From a virus, in the IMG/VR virus record IMGVR_UViG_3300009030_000024, positions 1-21,300 of that record: a stretch of 21,300 bases of DNA; one strand, written 5' to 3'. Below are positions 31-19,424 of the stretch, piece by piece (positions within the stretch are counted from its first letter, which is position 1; each line of letters begins with the position of its first letter). Below the pieces are notes generated by a model. It worked only from the letters and a program-made list of their open reading frames with translations. It ran no database searches and was not told the DNA's origin. The position numbers and the translations under genes are program-made.

Positions 31-42
31 AAGGGAGCCCCA
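31..42 (+). promoter_or_regulatory. Extended ribosome binding site AAGGGAGCCCCA
   Basis: AAGGGAG is a good Shine-Dalgarno match, followed by CCCCA and then the ATG at 43. The same extended string (AAGGGAGCCC plus a few bases) precedes the starts at 6585, 10527, 11711, 14004 and, in shorter form, 14397. It is therefore a recurrent translation signal of this phage. It fixes the start of the first gene of the window. Confidence 0.75.
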
Positions 43-4758: not shown

Positions 4759-5069
4759 CCCCCGATGAGGCCGAATTCAACGAAGAGATCCACGTCCGGA
4801 TCCAGTACCCCGGGAACGGAAACGGGAAGATTCTCCGACCGGGGAACCTCTACGACTTCGATGAATGGGAGACGTTTCTCAACCTTCACGATCTGAGCGG
4901 GCTCGACGTTTACCGGATCGATTTCCTCGAGGACGGTCGGATGACAGTTCACCGCTATCGGAAGGGCTCGGACGGACACCCGTTTCTCGCCAACCTCGAC
5001 ACTCGAGAGATCGCCACTTTCGAGCCGGTGACAATCACTCCCAAGGTTCCGATCCCGTCCTGGACGTGA
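4755..5069 (+). CDS. Hypothetical protein, 104 aa
   Basis: ATG at 4755 (ATGA overlap). An acidic N-terminus is followed by beta-like segments (EIHVRIQYPGNGNGKIL), a helix (DEWETFLNLHDLSGL), and strands (VYRIDFLEDGRMTVHRYR, then EIATFEPVTITPKV). It looks like a small single-domain alpha/beta protein. The TGA overlaps the TerL GTG start (GTGA), so it is translationally coupled to TerL. No family recognised. Confidence 0.6.
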   Translation: MTPDEAEFNEEIHVRIQYPGNGNGKILRPGNLYDFDEWETFLNLHDLSGLDVYRIDFLEDGRMTVHRYRKGSDGHPFLANLDTREIATFEPVTITPKVPIPSWT

Positions 5070-6556
5070 GCACCGCCGAAGCTCTATCGCGCGTCGATCT
5101 GATAACCAAGATCAACACTCAGCAAATCCGCAAAGACTGGTACAGGACCGAGCGACTTCGCAGGATCTACGGAGAGGATCCGGTCGCGTGGGCTAACGAT
5201 TTCCTCGACTTCGGAGAGGCCGGCGGTTTGGCCGAATACCAGGAAGAGACGCTCACCAATCTGGCCGTCCACCATCGAGAGGCAACTCGAGCTCCCCGGG
5301 GCGCGGGGAAGACCGCTCCCGCAGCGATAGCCGTCCATTGGTTCGCTAACACCTTCGACGGGCTCGACTGGAAGGTGGTCACGACGGCGGGGGGATGGCG
5401 GCAACTCATAAAGTTCCTCTGGCCTGAGATCCACAAATGGGCTCGAGCGATCGACTTTCAGAAGCTCGGAAGGCCGCGGTATACCAACCTCGAGCTCCAA
5501 GTAATGAGCCTGAAACTCAACACCGGGGAAGCCTTCGGAGTGGCCTCAGACAACCCGGACCTGATCGAAGGCGCGCACGCGGAGAACCTCCTAACGATCG
5601 TGGACGAGGCGAAGGCGGTTCCAGCGAAATCATGGGATGCGATCGAGGGGTACTTCTCGGACCCGGGCCACAAGCTGATTCTGGCGCTCTCGGTGCCGGG
5701 GGAGCCGGCGGGCCGCTTCCATGAGATCCACGCTCGAGCTCCCGGTTACGAGGAATGGCATACGACCCACGTCACCACGGAGCGAGCTCTCAAGGCGGGA
5801 CGGATCACTCAGGAATGGGTCGATGCTCGAGGGAAACAATGGGGGGAGGACTCCCCGCTGTATCGGACCTACGTCAAGGCCGAGTTTGCGGGTTCGGAGG
5901 ACGCGGCGATCCCGCTCGGTTGGATCGAGGCGGCGATGGCCCGTTGGGAGGAAGAGAAGACTCACGTTCTCACTCAGATCGGAGTGGACGTGGCAGACAC
6001 CGGAGAGGATCAAACCGTGATCGCGAAGCTGTACGGAACCCGGGTCGGAAGGCTCGCGTATCACGACGAGAAGGGCGCGGTTGGTGAGGGGCTCGAGGCC
6101 ACCGTGGGCCACGTCTGGAAGGCGACCGGATATGGAGCGGCGAAGATCCCGGTGGTCATAGACTCGATCGGAGTCGGCGCGGGAGTGGTCGGCCAGCTAC
6201 GAACGAAGGGAGCGGAGGTTGTCGGTTTTAACGCTTCGGAGGCGACCGACTGGACAGACGAATCCGGGGAGCTCCGATTCGTCAACAAACGATCCGCGGC
6301 CTGGTGGAACCTCCGGGAGCTCCTTCATCCTGATAACCCAACCCCGATCTCGCTCCCCCCGGACGACTTGCTTCTCGGGGATCTCGCTTCCCCGAAATGG
6401 CTTTCTATTACTTCCGGTGGCCGGCAACGCTTGGAGCCGAAGGTCGATATCAAGAGGCGACTAGGGCGGAGCCCGGACAGCGGGGATACCGTGGTCATGC
6501 TTTTCTGGACGGATCCCGTCGAGGTCATAACTCAGATCGAATGGGGCGCGGTCTAA
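5066..6556 (+). CDS. Terminase large subunit (packaging ATPase-nuclease), 496 aa
   Basis: TerL powers DNA translocation into the prohead and cuts the concatemer. The frame opens at 4865, but the GTG at 5066 overlaps the preceding stop (GTGA) and removes an arginine-rich non-protein-like extension. In the 496-residue protein the Walker A motif is APRGAGKT (residues 76-83). The Walker B is LLTIVDEAK, with the Asp-Glu pair at 180-181. The C-terminal RuvC-like nuclease domain shows acidic residues in IGVDVAD (Asp308), VVIDSIGVG (Asp366) and DSGDTVVM (Asp471/Asp474). Length is typical. It heads the packaging-head module. Confidence 0.92.
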   Translation: MSTAEALSRVDLITKINTQQIRKDWYRTERLRRIYGEDPVAWANDFLDFGEAGGLAEYQEETLTNLAVHHREATRAPRGAGKTAPAAIAVHWFANTFDGLDWKVVTTAGGWRQLIKFLWPEIHKWARAIDFQKLGRPRYTNLELQVMSLKLNTGEAFGVASDNPDLIEGAHAENLLTIVDEAKAVPAKSWDAIEGYFSDPGHKLILALSVPGEPAGRFHEIHARAPGYEEWHTTHVTTERALKAGRITQEWVDARGKQWGEDSPLYRTYVKAEFAGSEDAAIPLGWIEAAMARWEEEKTHVLTQIGVDVADTGEDQTVIAKLYGTRVGRLAYHDEKGAVGEGLEATVGHVWKATGYGAAKIPVVIDSIGVGAGVVGQLRTKGAEVVGFNASEATDWTDESGELRFVNKRSAAWWNLRELLHPDNPTPISLPPDDLLLGDLASPKWLSITSGGRQRLEPKVDIKRRLGRSPDSGDTVVMLFWTDPVEVITQIEWGAV

Positions 6557-6570
6557 AGTGGGGACCGACG

Positions 6571-6584
6571 AAGGGAGCCCCGAA
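6571..6584 (+). promoter_or_regulatory. Ribosome binding site deciding the 6585 start
   Basis: AAGGGAGCCCCGAA immediately precedes the ATG at 6585. The frame is open from a GTG at 6558, but that start would bury this strong signal inside the coding region. The same extended signal occurs before five other genes, so translation is taken to begin at 6585. Confidence 0.75.
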
Positions 6585-8855: not shown

Positions 8856-9273
8856 CACTCGTCCCGCGAATAGGGTCTTACAGCAACGCTCCGACCGTTG
8901 GCGCGCCGTAGACAACGAGCTCACTCGACTCTCGGAAACCACGACTCCACAGATCCGCCGGCAATTCCGGAGGGAAGCCCGCCGCGTAGCTCAGGCGCTC
9001 CGAACCGGGGGACTCACAGAGGCACTCGAGGCGATCTCGGTCGAAGAGTGGACGGTCGTTCTGACCCGGATCTGGACAGCTAACGCGGAGATCTACTTCG
9101 ATCGGACCCTCGAGGAACTCGCGCCTTTCGATCCAGCGCGGATCGCCTTGGGGCAATCTGTCCGGACCCTCGAGTTGATCCGCCGGCACGCCGAAGAGAA
9201 CGCGGAGGCGATCGTCGCCAACACTCGACGGAGGATCGAGGCGACCGTGGAGCGGGTTCTGAATGACGATTGA
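8848..9273 (+). CDS. N-terminal part of a MuF-like head protein (separate frame), 141 aa
   Basis: GTG start overlapping the end of the portal gene. The product is all helical: RWRAVDNELTRLSE, QIRRQFRREARRVAQALRTG, TEALEAISVEEWTVVLTRIW, then NAEIYFDRTLEEL and ENAEAIVANTRRRIEATVERV. This matches the helical N-terminal region that normally precedes the MuF core in head morphogenesis proteins encoded after the portal. Here the MuF core is in another frame, starting 11 bases before this gene ends. The pair could be a natural two-gene version, a frameshifted gene or a sequencing error. Confidence 0.6.
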   Translation: MVDTRPANRVLQQRSDRWRAVDNELTRLSETTTPQIRRQFRREARRVAQALRTGGLTEALEAISVEEWTVVLTRIWTANAEIYFDRTLEELAPFDPARIALGQSVRTLELIRRHAEENAEAIVANTRRRIEATVERVLNDD

Positions 9274-10288
9274 ATCGGGGTTTGGGCCAGCGGAGGAAGA
9301 GGAAGAAAGAGGGGATATCTTCCTTGGGTTCCTCATTTCGGTCGGGGTCGCCGCTCTCTTCTCGGATTGGGCCGGCGAGGATGATGAGCAACCGGGCGCG
9401 CGTTCCTCGTCGGTGGCTCGGCATAACGTAATGAGCTCGACCGCGGTTGGTACTCACGAAGCCGCTCTCCAATCGGGGGTCTTGCTTGAGAAGGAATGGC
9501 TCTCGATGCAGGACAACCGCGTTCGAGAAGCCCACGCGCTCGCGGACGGCCAGATCACCGGATCCGAGTCCCCCTACATCGTGGGCGGGGAAGAGCTCCA
9601 ATACCCTCGAGATCCAGGCGGCTCGATCGAGAACATCGCCAACTGCCGCTGTCAAGAGCTCTTCTCACCGATCGACACGATGGTTACTCCCCAAGAGGTC
9701 GAGGACGAAGCGAACCGGATCTTTGAGGAAGCGAAGGCGGCGGAGGCGGCGGTAACCGCTCGGATGAGGGGAATGTCCGGGAGGGTCGGTGGCCGAATGG
9801 AAGGGCTCGAGTTCAAGATCAAGAAGATCAAATCGCTCAAGCGGAAGATCGCGGGGAAGGTGAAAAAGGGCGGGCCTGGAATGTCCGCATCCCAAGCCGC
9901 GGGGCAGATCCAAGACTCCCTCCGCTACACGATGGTTCTCGAGGAGAAGAACTTCGCGGACGGGATGATCCGCTCGATCAACGAGCTCAAGGCTCAGGGG
10001 TTCACGGTAAACAAGGCGAAGAAATACTGGCTCAAGGGGAACTCCTACATGGGCTCGAACTACACCTTCAACACTCCGGAGGGGTTCACGTTCGAGCTCC
10101 AATTCCACACGCCGGCGAGTTTCGCTGTGAAGGAACCCCTACTTCATGGGATCTACGACAAGTGGCGAGTTCTCAAACCGGAGACAGTTCTGGCTCAGAA
10201 GTTCGACGCAGAAATGAGGGCGATCTCCGCGGAGGTTCCGTTCCCGCCGAGACTGGACGAGATCCCGGGGACGTTCAAGATGAACTAG
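9263..10288 (+). CDS. MuF head-morphogenesis domain fused to a RelA/SpoT-like domain, 341 aa
   Basis: ATG at 9263, overlapping the previous gene by 11 bases. Residues about 48-140 are a MuF core: ARSSSVARHNVMSSTAVGTH, then KEWLSMQDNRVREAHALADG, a GGEELQYPRDP segment and the NCRC signature (127-130). After a Glu/Ala linker, residues about 180-305 resemble a (p)ppGpp synthetase fold. Correspondences are KIKKIKSLKRKI (RxKxxxSxxRK), DSLRYTMV (Asp218), KAKKYWLKGNSYMGSNYTF (K...Y-x3-N) and FELQFHT (Glu278, equivalent to the catalytic ExQ). MuF-linked C-terminal toxins are known in temperate phages. The fold and any toxicity are inferred from motif reading. Confidence 0.75.
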   Translation: MTIESGFGPAEEEEERGDIFLGFLISVGVAALFSDWAGEDDEQPGARSSSVARHNVMSSTAVGTHEAALQSGVLLEKEWLSMQDNRVREAHALADGQITGSESPYIVGGEELQYPRDPGGSIENIANCRCQELFSPIDTMVTPQEVEDEANRIFEEAKAAEAAVTARMRGMSGRVGGRMEGLEFKIKKIKSLKRKIAGKVKKGGPGMSASQAAGQIQDSLRYTMVLEEKNFADGMIRSINELKAQGFTVNKAKKYWLKGNSYMGSNYTFNTPEGFTFELQFHTPASFAVKEPLLHGIYDKWRVLKPETVLAQKFDAEMRAISAEVPFPPRLDEIPGTFKMN

Positions 10289-10527
10289 AGGGGGACCAAG
10301 GCCTCCGCCATCGAGACGTTAAACCGAGCGGTGATTATCTCTCGAGCTCGCTCCGGGGTTATGTCCTCGATCTCTTGCTCCCCGCCGACTCGAGTGATTA
10401 CCTCGGCCATCGAGTTGTCCTGTCGCCAGCGTTTCTTAGACCACTCGAGGTAGTAGATCTTGAGGGGGTCGCGGGTGACTCGATACACCGCCCAACCCTC
10501 GTCTCCCTCGAAGTATTCATCCGCCAT
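10285..10527 (-). CDS. Last gene of the leftward block, 80 aa, tail-to-tail with MuF
   Basis: The ATG at 10527 is preceded by AAGGGAGCCCGAA. The protein has an acidic N-terminus (ADEYFEGDEG), a strand-rich segment with KIYYLEWSKKRWRQ, and a helix (TPERAREIITARFNVSMAEAL). Its stop overlaps the MuF stop by four bases on the opposite strand. It is the gene adjacent to the putative toxin domain and could in principle be an immunity factor, but the sequence does not prove this. It is expected on the transcript from the promoter at 11753-11780. Confidence 0.7.
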   Translation of the reverse strand: MADEYFEGDEGWAVYRVTRDPLKIYYLEWSKKRWRQDNSMAEVITRVGGEQEIEDITPERAREIITARFNVSMAEALVPL

Positions 10528-10540
10528 TTCGGGCTCCCTT
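10528..10540 (-). promoter_or_regulatory. Extended ribosome binding site for the 10527 start
   Basis: On the minus strand this reads AAGGGAGCCCGAA directly before the ATG at 10527. It matches the recurrent signal used on both strands of this phage. The 86 bases between 10528 and 10613 hold no other clear gene. They include an imperfect inverted repeat (GAGCTCCG and CGGGCTC) without a T-run, so I do not call a terminator. Confidence 0.65.
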
Positions 10541-10613
10541 CCACTCCTAATTCTAGTCGATCCTGAACCGAAACCCCCCGCGAGAGGGAGCTCCGGATTC
10601 GGGCTCGGGGCCG

Positions 10614-10877
10614 TTACTCAGTGAGTAGCGACTTGATCGCTTTCTCCGCGTTGGCCGAAGTCTCCACGACGATCTCGAGGATCCGCTCGGCCAGCGGAAG
10701 GGAGATCACCCGCGCGTAAACCGTCCCGTTGTGGACGATCTCGTAGCGAAGGCTCTTCGCTCCCTTGATCTGTCGGATCTCCGTGTCATCCATTTCTCTT
10801 CCCTTCCCGGGGAACGGCTCGACTTCGATGAGCTCGATCCGTCCCCCTGACTCTTCGATGATCTCGCGCAGGCTCAT
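10614..10877 (-). CDS. Hypothetical protein, 87 aa
   Basis: The ATG at 10877 overlaps the upstream stop (ATGA). The sequence is alpha/beta: SLREIIEESGGRIELIEVEPF, then KSLRYEIVHNGTVYARVISL and a C-terminal helix (PLAERILEIVVETSANAEKA). No cysteine and no membrane helix. Codon use resembles that of the structural genes, so there is no sign of recent transfer. Function unknown. Confidence 0.65.
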   Translation of the reverse strand: MSLREIIEESGGRIELIEVEPFPGKGREMDDTEIRQIKGAKSLRYEIVHNGTVYARVISLPLAERILEIVVETSANAEKAIKSLLTE

Positions 10878-11242
10878 TTGGTGGGCTTCGCTCCCGCCAT
10901 GATCTCGTTCATGGTGAAAACCTCAGAGGTTCCGTCCGACGTGAACGCACTCCGCAGGCTCGCGATCTCCGCGAACTCTTCGACCGTGGGAACTCGACCG
11001 TCAACCTCCGAAAGATCGAAGCTGGAAACCACGTCCTTGACGTAGGTATCTCCCATATCTCCGAGCTCTCCGGTGGCCGGGGTCACCGCGACCACGAACC
11101 ACGCGGAATACTCCGCGCTATCGTCGTTCTTGTATTTCTTGAGCACCTTGTAGGTGGCCGGTCCTCCAAACATCGTCCCGGTGAACACCGCGTAGGGCGG
11201 GTTGTCCTTGGATTTCTTGTCGATAAATGAGACGTTCAGCAT
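10874..11242 (-). CDS. Hypothetical protein, 122 aa
   Basis: ATG at 11242, two bases after the stop of the upstream gene. The N-terminal 55 residues are beta-rich and aromatic (LNVSFIDKKSKDNPPYAVFT, GTMFGGPATYKVLKKY, SAWFVVAVTPATGEL). The C-terminal half is acidic and helical (DVVSSFDLSEVDGRVPTVEEF, AEIASLRSAF). A beta-barrel binding domain with an acidic tail is one reading, as in small single-strand-binding-type proteins, but the match is not strong enough to name. It is the largest product of its transcription unit. Confidence 0.6.
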   Translation of the reverse strand: MLNVSFIDKKSKDNPPYAVFTGTMFGGPATYKVLKKYKNDDSAEYSAWFVVAVTPATGELGDMGDTYVKDVVSSFDLSEVDGRVPTVEEFAEIASLRSAFTSDGTSEVFTMNEIMAGAKPTK

Positions 11243-11245
11243 GGG

Positions 11246-11461
11246 TTATTCATCCTCTTCCTTGTCCGTGGTGATCTCGTACTCGAGCCCGTAGCCGCCG
11301 ACTTTCATGGCGTACTCATAGGACTGTCCTTGGTGGTTGAGTACGAAGGCGAACGCATCATTCGGGCTCATGGGCTCCGAGATCCGCTCTCCGTCTTTCG
11401 TGACTATCACGTTTATCATTTGTTCACCCCCCTTCATGGCTTCGATGGCTGACTGATTCAT
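11246..11461 (-). CDS. Hypothetical protein, 71 aa (internal start gives 57 aa)
   Basis: The ATG at 11461 overlaps the upstream TGA (ATGA), favouring the 71-residue form. However, an internal ATG at 11419 is preceded by GGGGGTGAACAA, a stronger ribosome site, giving a protein beginning INVIVTKDGERISEP. The body is beta-rich (INVIVTKDGERI, YEYAMKVGGYGLEYEIT) with an acidic end (DKEEDE). Both forms may be made. No recognised family. Confidence 0.6.
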   Translation of the reverse strand: MNQSAIEAMKGGEQMINVIVTKDGERISEPMSPNDAFAFVLNHQGQSYEYAMKVGGYGLEYEITTDKEEDE

Positions 11462-11586
11462 CCGTAAATCTCCCCGGTGACGATCTCTTCGATGGCGACC
11501 ACAGTGGGGACACCGACCGGGATCTCATCCGCGGCGGCAAAGAACCCGCCGAAGAAAATGGCGAAGGCGACAGCGACGGCACTCAC
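11458..11586 (-). CDS. Small membrane-anchored or exported peptide, 42 aa
   Basis: A GTG at 11586 overlaps the upstream stop (GTGA), and the TGA overlaps the next ATG (ATGA). The frame exactly fills the interval between its neighbours. The N-terminal 21 residues are hydrophobic (SAVAVAFAIFFGGFFAAA), like a membrane anchor or signal sequence. The rest is EIPVGVPTVVAIEEIVTGEI. A signal-peptidase-like AAA-D boundary is visible but there is no basic N-terminus. Function unknown. Confidence 0.6.
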   Translation of the reverse strand: MSAVAVAFAIFFGGFFAAADEIPVGVPTVVAIEEIVTGEIYG

Positions 11587-11711
11587 GCGACCACCGCCGT
11601 TTCCGTGTCCGTGGCCGCTATCGCGTCCCACAGTTCCTCCGCTGCCTCCGTACCGACCGCGGCCTCCGCCGCTTCGATCTCCGCTAGAACGTCCGCTTCT
11701 ATGTATGGCAC
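11583..11711 (-). CDS. First gene of the third leftward unit, small acidic protein, 42 aa
   Basis: I chose the GTG at 11711, preceded by AAGAAGGGAGCCCCCG. The frame is open to a TTG at 11780, but that codon lies in the -35 box of the promoter. The product is acidic, alanine-rich and helical (PYIEADVLAEIEAAEAAVGT, EAAEELWDAIAATDTET). The stop overlaps the next gene (GTGA). It lies about 35 bases downstream of the expected transcription start. Not recognised. Confidence 0.55.
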   Translation of the reverse strand: MPYIEADVLAEIEAAEAAVGTEAAEELWDAIAATDTETAVVA

Positions 11712-11725
11712 CCGGGGGCTCCCTT
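11712..11725 (-). promoter_or_regulatory. Ribosome binding site deciding the 11711 start
   Basis: On the minus strand AAGGGAGCCCCCG precedes the GTG at 11711. It matches the recurrent AAGGGAGCCCC element. This places the start well downstream of the promoter, rather than at the TTG inside the -35 region. Confidence 0.6.
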
Positions 11726-11746
11726 CTTGGTGGACTCTTCGCTCAC

Positions 11747-11792
11747 CCTTATATACTACTACGTTTACCAGGGAAAGCAAACGTATGTTTAC
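11747..11792 (-). promoter_or_regulatory. Promoter/operator P1 of the leftward block
   Basis: Reading the minus strand: GTAAACATACGTTTG (11792-11778), -35 TTGCTT (11780-11775), a second GTAAACGTAG in the spacer (from 11768), and -10 TAGTAT (11758-11753) with a 16-base spacer. TATATA (11755-11750) overlaps as an alternative -10. Six bases (ATAAGG) then precede GTGAGC at 11746. The two GTAAAC elements start 24 bases apart, as in P2. A regulator bound here would block polymerase. It should drive the six genes from 11711 to 10285. Confidence 0.75.
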
Positions 11793-12032
11793 CTAGTCGG
11801 GCCGTCCCGGGTAGCGCCCTTCGATCGATTCAGACGCTTGCTCGATGCGATTGGCGGGGGTCGCTTGGACGATCTCGATAGCCAGATCCACAGCCATTCT
11901 CAGATCGTCCCCGACGAGTCGGATCCTCCGAAACGACGTGCTCGAGAGCATCCCCTTCTTGTGCCGAAGCATGGCCGGCGGAGCAGCCTCGAGGATCTCG
12001 GTGAGAAGTTTGAGTAGCTCGTCCTTGGTCAC
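11793..12032 (-). CDS. Hypothetical helical protein, 79 aa
   Basis: GTG at 12032 overlaps the upstream stop (GTGA). Helical N-terminus (TKDELLKLLTEILEAAPPAM), a basic middle (LRHKKGMLSSTSFRRIRLV), another helix (DDLRMAVDLAIEIVQATPAN) and a polar end. The TAG stop directly abuts the P1 operator (GTAAAC begins at the next base), so the end of this unit touches the promoter of the next. Function unknown. Confidence 0.65.
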   Translation of the reverse strand: MTKDELLKLLTEILEAAPPAMLRHKKGMLSSTSFRRIRLVGDDLRMAVDLAIEIVQATPANRIEQASESIEGRYPGRPD

Positions 12033-12199
12033 TTGAGCTCTCCCTCCGATCTCTGGAACGACTTGAGAGCCGGTTGTCCGTGGATCGCACAGTAAGCCCC
12101 GATCTCCGCGTTCCGAGCGTTGTGGAGGATCGCGGTGGCGAGTTTGTCGCAGCGTTCACACTTCCGGGGGAAGATCTTCCGAAGGTGCGCGGGGCTCAT
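12029..12199 (-). CDS. Zinc-binding-like microprotein, 56 aa
   Basis: ATG at 12199 overlaps the upstream stop (ATGA); an in-frame GTG at 12259 would add 20 low-complexity residues inside the neighbouring gene and is rejected. Residues KCERC (Cys14, Cys17) and YCAIHG (Cys37, His40) make a CxxC-x19-CxxH pattern likely to bind one zinc. Similar spacing is seen in the rightward gene at 1435-1620, suggesting a shared microprotein family. Partner unknown. Confidence 0.65.
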   Translation of the reverse strand: MSPAHLRKIFPRKCERCDKLATAILHNARNAEIGAYCAIHGQPALKSFQRSEGELK

Positions 12200-12438
12200 A
12201 TCCGATTGGGCCGCGGGTTGGGCTTGTCCTCGAGCTCCATTCTCGAGACGCGCTCCCACGATCGCTCGTTATCGGCTCTCCGCTCTTTGAGCTCCTGCCC
12301 TTCGGCGTGGGTCATCGAGGGCCAGAAGTCGAATTCCTGAATGAACTCCGCGTGGATCTCGGCGCACTCAGAGCACCGGCACCCCGTATCGAGCCCGTAG
12401 GTCTTTGGTTCCGGAGGATCGACGTGGTGCGCGCCCAT
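12196..12438 (-). CDS. Cys/His-containing protein, 80 aa
   Basis: ATG at 12438 overlaps the upstream TAA by one base (TAATG). HH near the start, then GCRCSECAEIHAEF (Cys-x-Cys-x2-Cys-x3-His) suggests a zinc site. The C-terminal half is a charged helix (THAEGQELKERRADNERSWE) followed by a basic Asn/Pro tail. The pattern is compact and could be a metal-stabilised helical hairpin. Not recognised. Confidence 0.6.
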   Translation of the reverse strand: MGAHHVDPPEPKTYGLDTGCRCSECAEIHAEFIQEFDFWPSMTHAEGQELKERRADNERSWERVSRMELEDKPNPRPNRI

Positions 12439-12752
12439 TACCGCTCCCCCTTCTCGAAGATCCCGAGAACCTGATCGACTTGCTCATTGGTCAAATGATC
12501 GACCTGAACCGCTCCCGCGAAGACCCCGCCAACCTCGAGGGGGATCCAGGCGACCCGGAACCGGATCATTCCGTAGATCCGCGCGTAGTCCTCCTGGTTC
12601 CAATCGGTCGATTCCCCGTCGAGCCCGATGGCGGAATCTATCGCCACGCTCGAGCCCTTCACGGTCACGAAATAGTCACCCTCGTCGGTGACGACTCGGT
12701 ACTGTCCGTCCGGGATCGGGTTGGTCCCGGGCTCTCTTGCTCTTGTGCTCAT
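12438..12752 (-). CDS. Hypothetical protein, 104 aa
   Basis: ATG at 12752 with GAGGAAGA just upstream. An upstream in-frame ATG at 12797 would overlap the preceding gene by 31 bases and is less likely. The N-terminal 12 residues are polar. A beta-rich domain follows (DGQYRVVTDEGDYFVTVKGS), then DYARIYGMIRFRVAWIPLEV and a helix (TNEQVDQVLGIFEKGER). No catalytic motif is apparent. Confidence 0.6.
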   Translation of the reverse strand: MSTRAREPGTNPIPDGQYRVVTDEGDYFVTVKGSSVAIDSAIGLDGESTDWNQEDYARIYGMIRFRVAWIPLEVGGVFAGAVQVDHLTNEQVDQVLGIFEKGER

Positions 12753-12766
12753 TCTTCCTCGTTCCT

Positions 12767-13003
12767 TTAGTTGCCGGCTGGATGTTCCTTGCGCCATTCA
12801 GCGCGTCTCCGAGCACTCTCTTCGAGCTCGGCTTTCAGATCGGCCTCCATGCCCTGATATTCCTCATCCCATTTCCAGGGCTTCTCGAACACGTCGATCA
12901 CTTCACCCGCCCGCGCGGTGGCTCCCTCAAAAAACCACCGCGCAAACTTGGCAACCTCATCGGGATCGTCGTACCAGGATCCCTCGACGTACTTATCGCT
13001 CAT
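12767..13003 (-). CDS. Hypothetical acidic helical protein, 78 aa
   Basis: ATG at 13003 overlaps the upstream stop (ATGA) and has the strong site GGAGG seven bases upstream. Sequence: YVEGSWYDDPDEVAKFARWF, then a helix and a Glu/Arg-rich C-terminal helix (ADLKAELEESARRRAEWRKE). A perfect 9-base inverted repeat (12913-12921 with 12935-12943) lies inside the coding sequence. Function unknown. Confidence 0.65.
   Translation of the reverse strand: MSDKYVEGSWYDDPDEVAKFARWFFEGATARAGEVIDVFEKPWKWDEEYQGMEADLKAELEESARRRAEWRKEHPAGN
12913..12943. repeat. Perfect 9-bp inverted repeat inside a leftward gene
   Basis: GCGCGGTGG (12913-12921) is followed after 13 bases by its exact complement CCACCGCGC (12935-12943). 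The loop contains A6 on the plus strand (T6 on the transcribed minus-sense strand). There is no T-run after the stem in either direction, so it is not a standard terminator. It may fold in the mRNA or occur by chance. Confidence 0.5.
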
Positions 13004-13227
13004 TCTGAACCTCCAAATATCTCGTTCCAACACTCCGCATGGATCCCGGTCATTAGGCGCTCGCGCTCATCGGCGCTCTTCTCAGGCCATACGTTCTGGA
13101 CGTGCTCCCCGCCCTTCCACCGATCGAACTTCTCAGTGTCGAGCTCTACGATCGAGGTCAGGTGACAGACGATGCAGGCCGGGGTATGGAACTCGGTCAT
13201 TGTCCGGGGACCGCCGTTGGTGCTCAC
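13000..13227 (-). CDS. Small Cys/His protein, 75 aa
   Basis: GTG at 13227 overlaps the upstream stop (GTGA); an ATG at 13200 is the alternative. FHTPACIVCHL gives Cys-x2-Cys-His, and a later HAECW gives His-x2-Cys, enough for a zinc site. Between them lies a polar, Lys/Glu-rich segment. It ends in an ATGA overlap. Another member of the Cys-pair microproteins in this block, without a recognised family. Confidence 0.6.
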   Translation of the reverse strand: MSTNGGPRTMTEFHTPACIVCHLTSIVELDTEKFDRWKGGEHVQNVWPEKSADERERLMTGIHAECWNEIFGGSE

Positions 13228-13427
13228 GCTTGCTCCCTCACGTCCCAGTTGAATCCGGTCAGAGCGAATCGGATCGAATCGGCAACCGGAATGTCACCCT
13301 CTTCGGCCTCGATGATCGCCGCTATGTCCGCGGCCAGATCCTTGTCTTCGCCGGGGCCGATCGCTTTCGATAGCCGCCTCCACGCGTGACGTGACGCGTT
13401 CCTCGTCTCTGGATAGTTCTTGCTCAT
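13224..13427 (-). CDS. Hypothetical protein, 67 aa
   Basis: ATG at 13427 preceded by GGAAGG eight bases upstream; the longer frame to 13508 would overlap the previous gene deeply and is rejected. A basic N-terminal helix (RNASRHAWRRLSKAIG) is followed by an acidic helix (DLAADIAAIIEAEEGD) and a short end (SIRFALTGFNWDV). No cysteines. Function unknown. Confidence 0.6.
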   Translation of the reverse strand: MSKNYPETRNASRHAWRRLSKAIGPGEDKDLAADIAAIIEAEEGDIPVADSIRFALTGFNWDVREQA

Positions 13428-13449
13428 GGTTTGCACCTTCCGTCGTCCT

Positions 13450-13668
13450 TCATTTCCGTAGCACTCCCATACGACCCGCTCGGAAATCCGCTCGTTTCTT
13501 CCGAGCACAACTCAGAGCCGCGTTGCTCGTCTTGTGGAAGTGGGAGCAGACCGAATGACCCTCTCCCCTTCCGGTGTTGGTGGCCTCATACAGATCCAGC
13601 TTCCCGAAGTAGCTCTCGCCATCCCCGGCATAGGTGAATGAGATTCCCTTGTCCTTGTAAGCGTTCAT
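13450..13668 (-). CDS. Hypothetical basic protein, 72 aa
   Basis: ATG at 13668 preceded by GGAGGGAAGCGA and overlapping the upstream stop (ATGA). The N-terminal half is beta-like (KGISFTYAGDGESYFGKLDL). The second half has HSVCSHFH, a later SCARKKR and a strongly basic C-terminus (RADFRAGRMGVLRK). The two Cys and two His could bind zinc, and the basic tail may contact nucleic acid. Not recognised. Confidence 0.6.
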   Translation of the reverse strand: MNAYKDKGISFTYAGDGESYFGKLDLYEATNTGRGEGHSVCSHFHKTSNAALSCARKKRADFRAGRMGVLRK

Positions 13669-13787
13669 TCGCTTCCCTCCGTCTCTTCCGTGGACTCGTC
13701 TCCGTGGGCCTCGATGATCGACTCGAGAGTGATCCCGGGCTCGGTGCTCCCGCAGAACGGACAACTCACAATGTCGCTTGGGCTCAT
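13665..13787 (-). CDS. Single CPFCG zinc-ribbon-like peptide, 40 aa, probably leaderless
   Basis: The ATG at 13787 lies six bases after the -10 TATACT, so the transcript probably begins at or within a base of the start codon. No Shine-Dalgarno sequence precedes it. The peptide has one CPFCG knuckle (residues 9-13) and an acidic tail (EETEGSE). One knuckle cannot complete a zinc site alone, so a dimer or partner is needed. The stop overlaps the next ATG (ATGA). First gene of the nine-gene middle unit. Confidence 0.65.
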   Translation of the reverse strand: MSPSDIVSCPFCGSTEPGITLESIIEAHGDESTEETEGSE

Positions 13788-13793
13788 GGTCTA

Positions 13794-13834
13794 AGTATAC
13801 CTACGTTTACTCGAGAAGTCAAACGTATGTTTAC
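13794..13834 (-). promoter_or_regulatory. Promoter/operator P2 of the leftward block
   Basis: On the minus strand: GTAAACATACGTTTG (13834-13820), -35 TTGACT (13822-13817), a 17-base spacer containing GTAAACGTAG (from 13810), and -10 TATACT (13799-13794). AAACATACGTTT is close to palindromic, so the -35-proximal element can be read as a full operator and the spacer element as a half-site. The next gene start lies six bases past the -10. The stop codon TAA of the upstream gene (13831-13833) is inside the operator. Expected to drive nine genes down to 11793. Confidence 0.85.
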
Positions 13835-14004
13835 CCGCTCCCTGTCAGAATGGCGACGTATTCGATGGCTTTCTCGAGTCGCTTCGCAACCTCTCCGTCC
13901 GGAGAAACGAAGACGCTCGATGAGAGATAAGCGAGAACGAGGGCTCTCTCATGGTCCGAGAGATTGTCGATCTTGGCCTTGAGATCCGTGTAGTCGGTGT
14001 TCAT
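13831..14004 (-). CDS. Hypothetical helical protein, 57 aa
   Basis: ATG at 14004 preceded by AAGGGAGCCCCAAGAA. The product is helical (YTDLKAKIDNLSDHERALVL, then PDGEVAKRLEKAIEYVAIL). Short phage proteins of this DHERALVLAYL style are frequent, with no known function. The TAA stop lies within the P2 operator. Second and last gene of the unit from P3. Confidence 0.65.
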   Translation of the reverse strand: MNTDYTDLKAKIDNLSDHERALVLAYLSSSVFVSPDGEVAKRLEKAIEYVAILTGSG

Positions 14005-14020
14005 TTCTTGGGGCTCCCTT
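14005..14020 (-). promoter_or_regulatory. Extended ribosome binding site for the 14004 start
   Basis: Minus strand AAGGGAGCCCCAAGAA lies directly before the ATG at 14004. It matches the recurrent AAGGGAGCCCC signal of this phage and confirms the start of this 57-codon gene. Confidence 0.7.
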
Positions 14021-14022
14021 CC

Positions 14023-14397
14023 TCAGTCCAGCCGCGAGGCCGCGTACGCGGTGATCCCCGCTTCCTTGACGACCGCAGCAAAGGCAACCGCGAACGCGTA
14101 CTTCCGAGTCACGCTCTGGCCGAACTCATGGACGAAGAATTCCTCACCGCCGTAGTAGGCCTTGTGAGAGACTCCGCTCTTCCGCAGGAACTTCGCGAAC
14201 GAAGAGCTCCCAGGCCGAACCGTGACGGTGGCAAAGCCGCAAGGCCCGTCCATAACCGGAGCGTATTCCTTGACGATCGCGGAGGAATCATCGAATGGAT
14301 TCTCCCGCTCGACAACGAACATCGGCTCCGGGATCGCGGCCTTACCCGCTTCCATTCCCGCAGTAAACGCCGCGTCGTAGATTTCCTGATTCTTCAT
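14023..14397 (-). CDS. Hypothetical protein, 124 aa (alternative leaderless form 135 aa)
   Basis: ATG at 14397 follows GGGAGCCCC. An in-frame GTG at 14430 stands six bases after the TATAAT box and would add VSQESKRDGSP; both starts may be used. The protein has an N-terminal helix (YDAAFTAGMEAGKAAIP), a beta region (MFVVERENPF, GFATVTVRPGSSSFAKFL) and an Ala-rich C-terminal helix (KYAFAVAFAAVVKEAGITAY). Not recognised. First gene after the strongest promoter of the window. Confidence 0.65.
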   Translation of the reverse strand: MKNQEIYDAAFTAGMEAGKAAIPEPMFVVERENPFDDSSAIVKEYAPVMDGPCGFATVTVRPGSSSFAKFLRKSGVSHKAYYGGEEFFVHEFGQSVTRKYAFAVAFAAVVKEAGITAYAASRLD

Positions 14398-14436
14398 GGG
14401 GCTCCCGTCTCTCTTGGACTCTTGGCTCACGATCCC

Positions 14437-14476
14437 ATTATACATACGTTTACCGGCTATGTCAACATACGTTTAC
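14437..14476 (-). promoter_or_regulatory. Promoter/operator P3 of the leftward block, consensus sigma70
   Basis: On the minus strand: GTAAACGTATGTTG (14476-14463), -35 TTGACA (14465-14460), a 17-base spacer holding GTAAACGTATG (from 14453), and -10 TATAAT (14442-14437). Both boxes match consensus fully. The two GTAAAC elements start 23 bases apart. GTGAGC follows six bases after the -10. Such a strong promoter overlaid with repeats suggests tight repression when a cognate regulator is present. Drives 14023-14397 and 13831-14004. Confidence 0.88.
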
Positions 14477-17339: not shown

Positions 17340-17978
17340 ATGCACAATGACCGAATGGGAATGACGGACGAGGTTACCTACAAGCTCTTGTCCGGGGACG
17401 AAGCCGTGAAGAGCAAAGAGCCCTACGTCCCGAAGAAGACTCGTCCCGATCGTCTCATTCGCGCGAGATTCGTGCTCCGAGAGAAGATCAATCTTCGAGG
17501 CACCGTTACCGCGATCCTCCGTGGACCGGACGGGATAATCAAGCAAGTCGAAACGGGTCACAACCTCATAACTGACCACGGAGACGAGCACGCCGCGAGG
17601 CGACTCTTCGATGATGCGATCGACATTGTGACCGGGATGAGGCTCGGAACCTCGACTACCGCAGTAGCGAAGGCGGGTGCCGGCGGAGCGCTAGTCGCGT
17701 ATATCTCCGGATCGGAAGAGGCTCTCGACGCGACCGCGGGAAACTCGGATCTAGGCGCGGGGCTCGGTCACAGGGCGACCTATGTCTCCACTTGGGTCGC
17801 GGCTGACGTAGTGAACTCGAATATCAACGAGACGGTTCTCACCGACGAGACTCCGATCACCGATACCGCGGGAGTGCTCGGGGATACGGTCGCGAGGTTC
17901 GTCTTCGGTTCCACGATCGACAAGCAAGTGGGCGACTCGCTCGAGGTCACTTGGAATAACGACGCTCTCGGAGCGTAA
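17340..17978 (+). CDS. Virion-associated protein of unknown role, 212 aa
   Basis: ATG at 17340 follows TAAGGAACCGCT. Residues 1-50 are charged (VKSKEPYVPKKTRPDRLIRA). The main part (NLRGTVTAILRGPDGIIKQV, then ETGHNLITDHGDEHAARRL, GMRLGTSTTAVA, and GHRATYVSTWVAADVVNSN) resembles the NLVTNxG...GTGTTA proteins that occur among phage fibre and head genes. Beta-rich with a Thr/Asp-rich end. It lies between the decoration-like and repeat proteins, so a surface component is likely. An ATG at 17355 is an alternative start. Confidence 0.55.
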   Translation: MHNDRMGMTDEVTYKLLSGDEAVKSKEPYVPKKTRPDRLIRARFVLREKINLRGTVTAILRGPDGIIKQVETGHNLITDHGDEHAARRLFDDAIDIVTGMRLGTSTTAVAKAGAGGALVAYISGSEEALDATAGNSDLGAGLGHRATYVSTWVAADVVNSNINETVLTDETPITDTAGVLGDTVARFVFGSTIDKQVGDSLEVTWNNDALGA

Positions 17979-17996
17979 GCCCAAGGGAGTAAGTGA

Positions 17997-19424
17997 ATGG
18001 CTCAATTCGCTGTCCCCGATGCCGACACAGCGACCGGAGTCGGTTGGACGACTTCCGGGTTCGCTCAACTCGATGAGGGAGCTCCCGGAGGGAACGATCT
18101 CGCTCAACAGGCCAAAGGCAACGCGAGCGCGTTCCTCGACAAAGGGCTCACCGATGTAACCGATCCCTCTCTCTCGACGGGTCACGTTCTCCGAGCTCGA
18201 TGGCAGAAGGCCGGCGGCTCAAGAATCCTCAACGCCTTCCTCGAGCTATGGCAGGGAGTCCCCGGATCCGGGACGCTGATCGCGACCCTCAACATCAACG
18301 ATATCGGGACCACGCTCTCGATCGACACGGTGGCTCTCACCGGGACCGAAGCCGACAATATCACCGACTACGCGGCGATCCAGCTTCGGCTGTATTACAC
18401 CTACTCCGGAGGCGGATCTCAGCCGACTTTCGATGCTGACTTCATCGAGCTCGAGGTTCCCGACGCGGCAGGAGGGAACGTATTCGTAACGGTTGACGAC
18501 GATCTCGGACTCACTGACGACACGACTCGAGTTCATACCGCGGAGCGGATCGTCTCCGACGATCTCGGATTAGCCGATAGCACTCCGCACGTTCTCGACG
18601 CGAAGCGGGAGATCACGGATCCTCTCGGGCTCACCGACTCGGTATCTGCCGAGCTCACGATCAAGGTAGAGATAACCGACGCTCTCGGGCTCACAGATAG
18701 CACCACGACGGCCAGAACGCTCTCGAGAACGATCACCGACGCGTTGGGGCTCACTGATACCACCGCTCGAGTTATCGCCGCTCTCCGGGCCGTTACGGAC
18801 GCTCTAGGGCTCACAGACTCAACGGAGCGCGCTCTAACGATCATCCGGGAGATCACCGACGCTCTCGGGCTCGAGGATTCGACGGTTGACGATCTGACCG
18901 CGGGAGGGGGAGACGTATTCGAGGAGATCACCGACGCGTTGGGGCTCACTGACGACACGGCTCGAGTCCACACCGCCGAGCGAGCCGTTACTGATCCTCT
19001 CGGGCTCACCGATGACACAACCCGCGTACACGCCGCAGAGCGGGTCATAGACGACGATCTCGGGCTCTCGGACTCGGTAGTACCCGCCAAGACGATACGG
19101 GTCGAGATAACCGATTCTCTAGGGCTCTCCGATGACATAGCTCCCGCGAAAGCGATCCAAGTCGAGATCTCGGACGGGCTCGGTTACCAGGACACAACCT
19201 CTCGAGTGATCGATTACGCCACTGTCATATTTGACGCTCTCGGACTCGAAGACTCAACCTCGAGAGTGCTCGATTACGCGCGGGTCGTAGACGACGCTCT
19301 CGAGCTCTCCGACGACACAACCCCGGTCCTAACGGGAGTGGGCGCGTTCTTTTGGGAGAAAGACGCGGTTCCGTTTACGAAGGATCCGGTAGCCTTCACG
19401 AAGAGAAAGCCGGGAGATCCATAA
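17997..19424 (+). CDS. Tandem-repeat virion fibre-like protein, 475 aa
   Basis: ATG at 17997 preceded by AAGGGAGTAAGTGA. Residues 1 to about 155 form a beta-sandwich-like domain (SRILNAFLELWQGVPGSGTL, AAIQLRLYYTYSGG, TFDADFIELEVPDA). Then 14 repeats of 20 residues follow, consensus ITDALGLTDSTxRxLxxxRx, roughly residues 160-445. Unit 7 carries a five-residue insertion (AGGGD). The end is FFWEKDAVPFTKDPVAFTKR. Repeats of the DxLGLTDS type occur in elongated surface proteins. Attachment to the capsid or tail is inferred. Confidence 0.6.
   Translation: MAQFAVPDADTATGVGWTTSGFAQLDEGAPGGNDLAQQAKGNASAFLDKGLTDVTDPSLSTGHVLRARWQKAGGSRILNAFLELWQGVPGSGTLIATLNINDIGTTLSIDTVALTGTEADNITDYAAIQLRLYYTYSGGGSQPTFDADFIELEVPDAAGGNVFVTVDDDLGLTDDTTRVHTAERIVSDDLGLADSTPHVLDAKREITDPLGLTDSVSAELTIKVEITDALGLTDSTTTARTLSRTITDALGLTDTTARVIAALRAVTDALGLTDSTERALTIIREITDALGLEDSTVDDLTAGGGDVFEEITDALGLTDDTARVHTAERAVTDPLGLTDDTTRVHAAERVIDDDLGLSDSVVPAKTIRVEITDSLGLSDDIAPAKAIQVEISDGLGYQDTTSRVIDYATVIFDALGLEDSTSRVLDYARVVDDALELSDDTTPVLTGVGAFFWEKDAVPFTKDPVAFTKRKPGDP
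18485..19335 (+). repeat. 14 tandem 60-bp repeats encoding DALGLTDS units
   Basis: The encoded period is 20 residues. Each unit contains a GAYSMxCTCGGGCTC-like stretch encoding D-x-LGL, so the DNA itself is repetitive (GACGCTCTCGGGCTCAC recurs). Synonymous differences between units suggest the array is old or under selection to limit recombination. One unit is extended by five codons at about 18895-18920. Unit number could vary between relatives. Confidence 0.75.

Follow-up and report, generated by a model that had tools for sequence, protein, structure and literature searches.

Paired operators, a start-associated motif and an RTG at the predicted RNA start in the leftward promoters of an uncultured phage

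Three leftward promoters of an uncultured phage carry the hexamer RTGAGC (R, purine) just past the -10 box, which raises the question of whether RNA and protein both begin at that RTG. The promoters, P1, P2 and P3, lie on a 21.3-kb virus contig, IMG/VR record IMGVR_UViG_3300009030_000024, whose 21,300 nt are here called the window. The initial annotation had placed RTGAGC exactly six bases past each -10 and taken all three RTGs for leaderless starts. The spacing is borne out by the minus-strand readings: TTTGCT-17-TAGTAT-ataagg-GTGAGC for P1 (GTG at 11746), TTGACT-17-TATACT-tagacc-ATGAGC for P2 (ATG at 13787) and TTGACA-17-TATAAT-gggatc-GTGAGC for P3 (GTG at 14430). As to the starts, the reading favoured here, which is probable but well short of certain, is of a repressible cassette in which P2 would be leaderless, and P1 and P3 would drive genes led by a start-associated sequence (SAS) and carry the RTG at +1. 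The promoters are:

11753..11781, minus strand: promoter P1, -35 TTTGCT at 11781-11776 and -10 TAGTAT at 11758-11753; predicted RNA start 11746
13794..13822, minus strand: promoter P2, TTGACT-17-TATACT; predicted RNA start 13787
14437..14465, minus strand: promoter P3, TTGACA-17-TATAAT, 12/12 consensus; predicted RNA start 14430

The spacing is far from what chance would give. The window has four occurrences of TANNNT-N6-RTGAGC where 0.04 are expected; the one other than P1 to P3 (plus strand, 1045) is without promoter context. A close relative, IMG/VR 3300020235_000180 (G001), is 99.6% identical from window position 13006 leftward and reaches 8.2 kb beyond the left end. This extension (locus L019) was counted as further sequence of the same phage type, giving 29.5 kb in all. 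A scan of both strands of the 29.5 kb for TTG[AC]-16/18-TANNNT yielded five promoters only, P1, P2, P3 and, in the extension, P4 (TATACT-gagggc-ATGACTACGGGAGCCCTTATG, ATG at gap 6) and P5 (TATAAT-taggag-TGCAGG, no RTG at gap 6). P1, the weakest, has the poor -35 TTTGCT and was not picked up by a strict scan; it was found also under this weaker, 17-spaced -35, and an overlapping TATATA is a possible alternative -10. The RTG thus stands at gap 6 in all four gene-facing promoters, P1 to P4, and not in P5, which faces no convincing open reading frame (ORF). With RTG at a frequency of 0.0215 per position, the naive p is ~1e-5 for three of three at a fixed gap and 2e-7 for four of four at gap 6 with P4 of the relative included; these values are anticonservative because the cassettes are paralogous, and the real probability is larger. 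Pooled over 2.08 Mb of terminase relatives, counting both strands, RTG is not enriched at gap 6 (1/33 promoters) and is more frequent at gap 7 (6/33, redundant contigs included).

Transcription usually starts in the interval 6-8 nt downstream of the -10, where P2, P3 and P4 each offer a single purine, the R of the RTG. Between P1 and P3 the discriminator, the six bases between -10 and RTG, is identical at one position of six, and +1 to +15 at 14 of 15; the whole leaders agree at 28 of 33 positions. The spacing and the purine position, together with the P1/P3 similarity that begins there, make the R of each RTG the best candidate for the transcription start. The step from 1/6 to 14/15 identity also speaks against simple shared descent of the whole block. 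ATG 14445, the start of the longest P3 ORF, was rejected because it sits at the -10 and so ahead of the predicted start of the RNA.

P1, P2 and P3 repeat one cassette, in which two TAAACRTAYGTTTA-like operators lie across a SigA-type promoter. Operator-like matches number 11 against 0.85 expected, and all five promoters bear GTAAAC-type operator sequence. The paired operators span 11753-11792 at P1, 13795-13834 at P2 and 14438-14476 at P3:

11777..11792, no strand assigned: upstream operator of P1, GTAAACATACGTTTGC
about 11759-11769: second half-copy of the operator at P1, GGTAAACGTAG, within the spacer
13795..13834, no strand assigned: operators of P2, upstream copy 13819-13834, copy over the -10 13795-13810
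14438..14476, no strand assigned: operators of P3, upstream copy 14461-14476, copy over the -10 14438-14453

What separates P2 from P1 and P3 is a second element, [AC]GGGAGCCC. The 29.5 kb contain eight copies of it, each followed at a distance of 1-6 nt by a start codon (naive p 5e-8). Three are in cassettes, at P1 (GTG 11711), P3 (ATG 14397) and P4 (ATG L019 5459). It also precedes genes without operator promoters, and it suggests start corrections there, such as ATG 6585 rather than GTG 6558. The copies in the window are:

11716..11725, minus strand: motif AAGGGAGCCC of P1, before GTG 11711
14399..14408, minus strand: motif ACGGGAGCCC of P3, before ATG 14397
14011..14020, minus strand: start-associated motif before ATG 14004
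10531..10540, minus strand: start-associated motif before ATG 10527
31..40, plus strand: start-associated motif before ATG 43
6571..6580, plus strand: start-associated motif before ATG 6585

P2 is without the motif. Shine-Dalgarno (SD)-like pairing is lacking before 13787 and 14430 (-4.0 kcal/mol) and is seen at 14397 and 11711 (-7.8 and -11.2), the range at SD-led genes overall being -6.0 to -11.2. The reading frames at the three promoters are:

13665..13787, minus strand: P2 ORF, 40 aa, beginning MSPSDIVSCPFCGS; no SD, stop overlapping the ATG of the next gene (ATGA)
13450..13668, minus strand: next gene of the P2 unit, 72 aa, strong SD (GGAGG)
11699..11746, minus strand: P1 short ORF from the predicted +1 GTG, 15 codons, VSEESTKKGAPGCHT; ends inside the 11711 ORF, in another frame
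11583..11711, minus strand: P1 gene, 42 aa, SD-led GTG start, coding signal 0.69 bits/codon
14398..14430, minus strand: P3 leader, GTGAGCCAAGAGTCCAAGAGAGACGGGAGCCCC; an in-frame 11-codon extension if leaderless, a 5' untranslated region if the SAS start is used
14023..14397, minus strand: P3 gene, 124 aa from ATG 14397, 135 aa from GTG 14430

The RTG probably opens a coding frame at P2, with a weak coding signal; it may do so at P3; at P1 it does not. P2 is a good leaderless candidate because it has no motif and no SD, and its 40-codon ORF ends in ATGA with an SD-bearing gene. The gene at 13787 is thus probably leaderless; its product shows a CPFCGS zinc-knuckle-like half motif (CxxC). GTG 11746 is not the start of the P1 gene, because its ORF is 15 codons long and in the other frame; read through, that frame scores -0.40 bits/codon against 0.69 for the 11711 frame. 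The 15-codon ORF is identical in the relative (L007). P3 and P4 each have two possible starts in one frame, separated by 11 codons at P3 and by 6 at P4. The motif, which the initial annotation had overlooked and which marks starts in eight cases of eight, stands directly before 11711 and 14397, and the P1 and P3 genes are therefore assigned an SD and a leader of 33-35 nt; the motif-led starts lie 41 nt (P1), 39 nt (P3) and 24 nt (P4) from the -10. On the sequence, the P1 gene is not leaderless, and the P3 start leans to 14397 over 14430, although with both in frame the sequence cannot choose. The claim of leaderless starts thus holds at P2, fails at P1, where 11746 is out of frame, and at P3 gives way, with less assurance, to the SD-led 14397. 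For the annotation, the P1 gene start moves to 11711, the P3 start probably to 14397, and a 40-aa gene is added at 13787.

Put together, a sigma-70/SigA promoter would lie between two TAAACRTAYGTTTA-like operators, positioned at the -35 and the -10 respectively, where a phage repressor is predicted to bind and shut the promoter off. Once the promoter is released, the first base of the RNA would be the R of the RTG, six bases past the -10, as spacing and purine position indicate. From P2 would come a leaderless mRNA for the 40-aa protein, whose translation would be coupled to that of the following gene. The mRNAs of P1 and P3 would carry a 33-35 nt leader, the main start codon being set by the [AC]GGGAGCCC ribosome-site motif. 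Their 5' RTG, if used, would yield an overlapping peptide of 15 codons at P1 and, at P3, 11 extra residues at the N-terminus. Such a set would work like the promoters of extended start-associated sequences (ESAS) and the SAS motifs of cluster K mycobacteriophages.

In cluster K, a 13-bp SAS precedes start codons, and half of the copies are preceded by ESAS repeats (PMC3203893). The ESAS are SigA-like promoters with inverted repeats, probably repressed, and a leaderless promoter or transcript was inferred for one gene, gene 90 (PMC11373665). In K4 phages the right repeat may end on the start codon (PMC12699233). The system described here shares several features with ESAS plus SAS of Anaya, Pixie, Adephagia and TM4: i) a SigA-like promoter with 16-18 bp spacing within repeated operator-like sequence, upstream of the SAS; ii) a leader of ~18-40 nt and several copies per genome; and iii) strong conservation of a ...GGGAGCCC/GGAGCCC motif that stands a few nt ahead of start codons, here those of many genes. 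It differs in the operator sequence, in that the operators here are palindromic copies whereas the cluster K ESAS consists of two arms of one 17-bp inverted repeat, and in the SAS-led transcripts, which here also begin with RTG. The motif itself departs from the cluster K consensus: the SAS there is GGGATAGGAGCCC, and [AC]GGGAGCCC has only the ...GGAGCCC part in common and lacks the leading GGG. The phages are unrelated at the DNA level, and this one falls outside cluster K; its terminase-like gene (5066-6556) is nearest to those of Actinoplanes phage phiAsp2 and Streptomyces phage TurkishDelight (44-46%).

Spacing was measured on half-genomes of Anaya, Pixie and the K4 phage Wintermute. SAS-led genes of cluster K start 32-40 nt past the -10. 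No RTG was counted by eye at gap 5-8 in 15 cluster K SAS-led promoters (three have one at gap 4), against three of three SAS-led promoters here; a Fisher test with 14 cluster K promoters gives p 0.0015, the kinship of copies being ignored. In Wintermute one promoter family leads either to SAS-led genes (leader ~30 nt) or to two leaderless genes, never both, so that the two kinds are exclusive, unlike here. Its two ESAS without SAS have ATG 7 nt past the -10 (TAGAGT or TAGACT), in one case as ATGAGC. This K4 type (Wintermute genes 81 and 92; Yasnaya_Polyana), with TTGACA-16-TAGACT-gccctac-ATGAGC, resembles P2 in having the start codon at the predicted +1, and differs in its gap of 7 (here 6) and its 16-bp spacer. 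The annotated GTG start of Wintermute gene 81 (MF140435, L125:25416-25451) overlaps the -10 box; the likelier leaderless start is the ATG that follows 9 nt later and coincides with the predicted +1. On this comparison, P2 on the one side and P1 and P3 on the other correspond to the two results that a single promoter family is known to give.

Two further systems are similar in part. Microbacterium cluster EF phages carry at their ribosome sites a 13-bp conserved motif, GGGAAAGGACCCC, and upstream of it a second, associated one; the motif sequences differ, and no promoter reading has been reported for EF. TA-led leaderless genes of Actinobacteria and Deinococcus-Thermus carry TANNNT with its first T about 12 bp before the start codon and no SD, as P2 does. 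In all of P1 to P4 the first T is exactly 12 nt from the RTG, but P1 and P3 also have a downstream SD-led start. The appeal to Actinobacteria in the initial annotation is plausible, but the phage relatives point to differing host groups.

The alternatives turn on what the RTG does at P1 and P3. Were all three RTGs true leaderless starts, as initially proposed, the products would be a 135-aa P3 protein from 14430, the 40-aa P2 protein and a 15-aa P1 leader peptide for the 42-aa ORF. An RTG at +1 is enough for translation in mycobacteria (PMC4633059), RTG stands at the predicted +1 in four of four mRNA-facing promoters, and RTGAGC, which also begins six non-promoter leftward genes (13427, 13227, 13003, 12752, 12199, 10877), resembles a start codon. 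The proposal is nevertheless improbable: motif and SD lie directly before 14397 and 11711, the P1 RTG is in the wrong frame for the gene, the 11-codon and 14-codon stretches lack a coding signal, and the P1/P3 leader is kept through a 1-nt indel, hence not as a reading frame. That conservation, which sets in at the predicted +1 and extends over the whole leader, would suit a 5' leader RTGAGC-AAGAGTCC acting as an RNA or promoter-escape element (an initially transcribed sequence, a 5'-end stability element or a phage-factor binding site), with the RTG incidental. To such an element, in whichever form, we give little credence. P2 and P4 have little in common beyond RTGA, and the leader RNAs fold unremarkably, without a stable structure (z +1.8 and +1.4). 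An IMG/VR scan with the leader-plus-motif pattern gave chance matches only and no other copy with promoter context.

It is possible, though we doubt it, that P1 and P3 owe their +1 RTGs to chance or to a leaderless ancestor from which the cassettes were copied, nothing but the SAS starts and P2 being of consequence. Homology between the P1 and P3 leaders is plain, so the three cassettes are not independent, and cluster K SAS-led leaders have no RTG at this place. A mere relic sits poorly with a discriminator that has diverged while +1 to +15 has not, and with P4, which retains its ATG though its leader is otherwise different. Deliberate double starts, with the +1 RTG serving 70S leaderless initiation and an SAS/SD start following 18-35 nt later, are a tentative and rather unlikely idea; one mRNA would then have two initiation routes, with perhaps a switch between them in the course of infection, and P3 and P4 would have two N-termini each and P1 a coupling peptide. 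Several points count against the favoured reading of a repressible cassette with P2 leaderless and P1 and P3 SAS-led. No repressor gene was found in the 29.5 kb. The P2 ORF has the best coding signal of six frames, yet at 0.06 bits/codon this is just below the 95th percentile of non-coding windows, and no homologue was found for it. G001 is the sole close relative, and P2 and P3 lie outside its aligned part. The host hints disagree: the terminase points to Actinobacteria, the portal to Sinorhizobium/Microcystis, and the capsid is mixed.

In the surroundings, rightward phage genes encode a portal (PF04860, 7449-8855), a MuF-like protein (9263-10288) and a capsid protein (PF05065, 15328-16653). 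Inserted between the MuF-like gene and those on the capsid side, and running against the structural genes, at least 16 small orphan leftward genes (10285-14430) look like a separately controlled accessory cassette. The P3 product is an orphan apart from a weak match to PHROG 22149, and searches for homologues of P3, P4 and other leftward-cluster proteins gave none usable. Two matches to the 10874 protein, from low-GC unrelated phages without the cassette, were set aside. Operator pattern scans of IMG/VR returned the 99.6% relative as the only real match, the remainder being chance; a distant nucleotide search with the terminase gene gave short Streptomyces phage matches only; and a genome scan for the host gave Streptomyces, Anaerolineales and Acidimicrobiia relatives at 40-47%. 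Rfam had no match in the window or the relative. Downstream of P5, outside the window, ~690 nt (L019:5568-6250; G001 17568-18250) are without a convincing ORF and are predicted to form several long helices (minimum free energy -273 kcal/mol, z -1.9, 20 shuffles), with no Rfam or phage blastn match; the stretch is a candidate for a large structured phage RNA or a long 5' leader of a 56-aa gene.

The system is best filed as a variant of ESAS/SAS-type phage gene control in an unrelated phage, and would extend this unexplained cluster K design to an uncultured phage. A host that uses +1 RTGs would be expected to make the P1 peptide and the P3 extension beside the SAS-led products. P1 to P5 form a natural set in which one promoter type leads to a leaderless gene, to SAS-led genes with a +1 RTG and to a probable non-coding RNA, and the set could show whether the SAS marks translation and whether the +1 RTGs are used.

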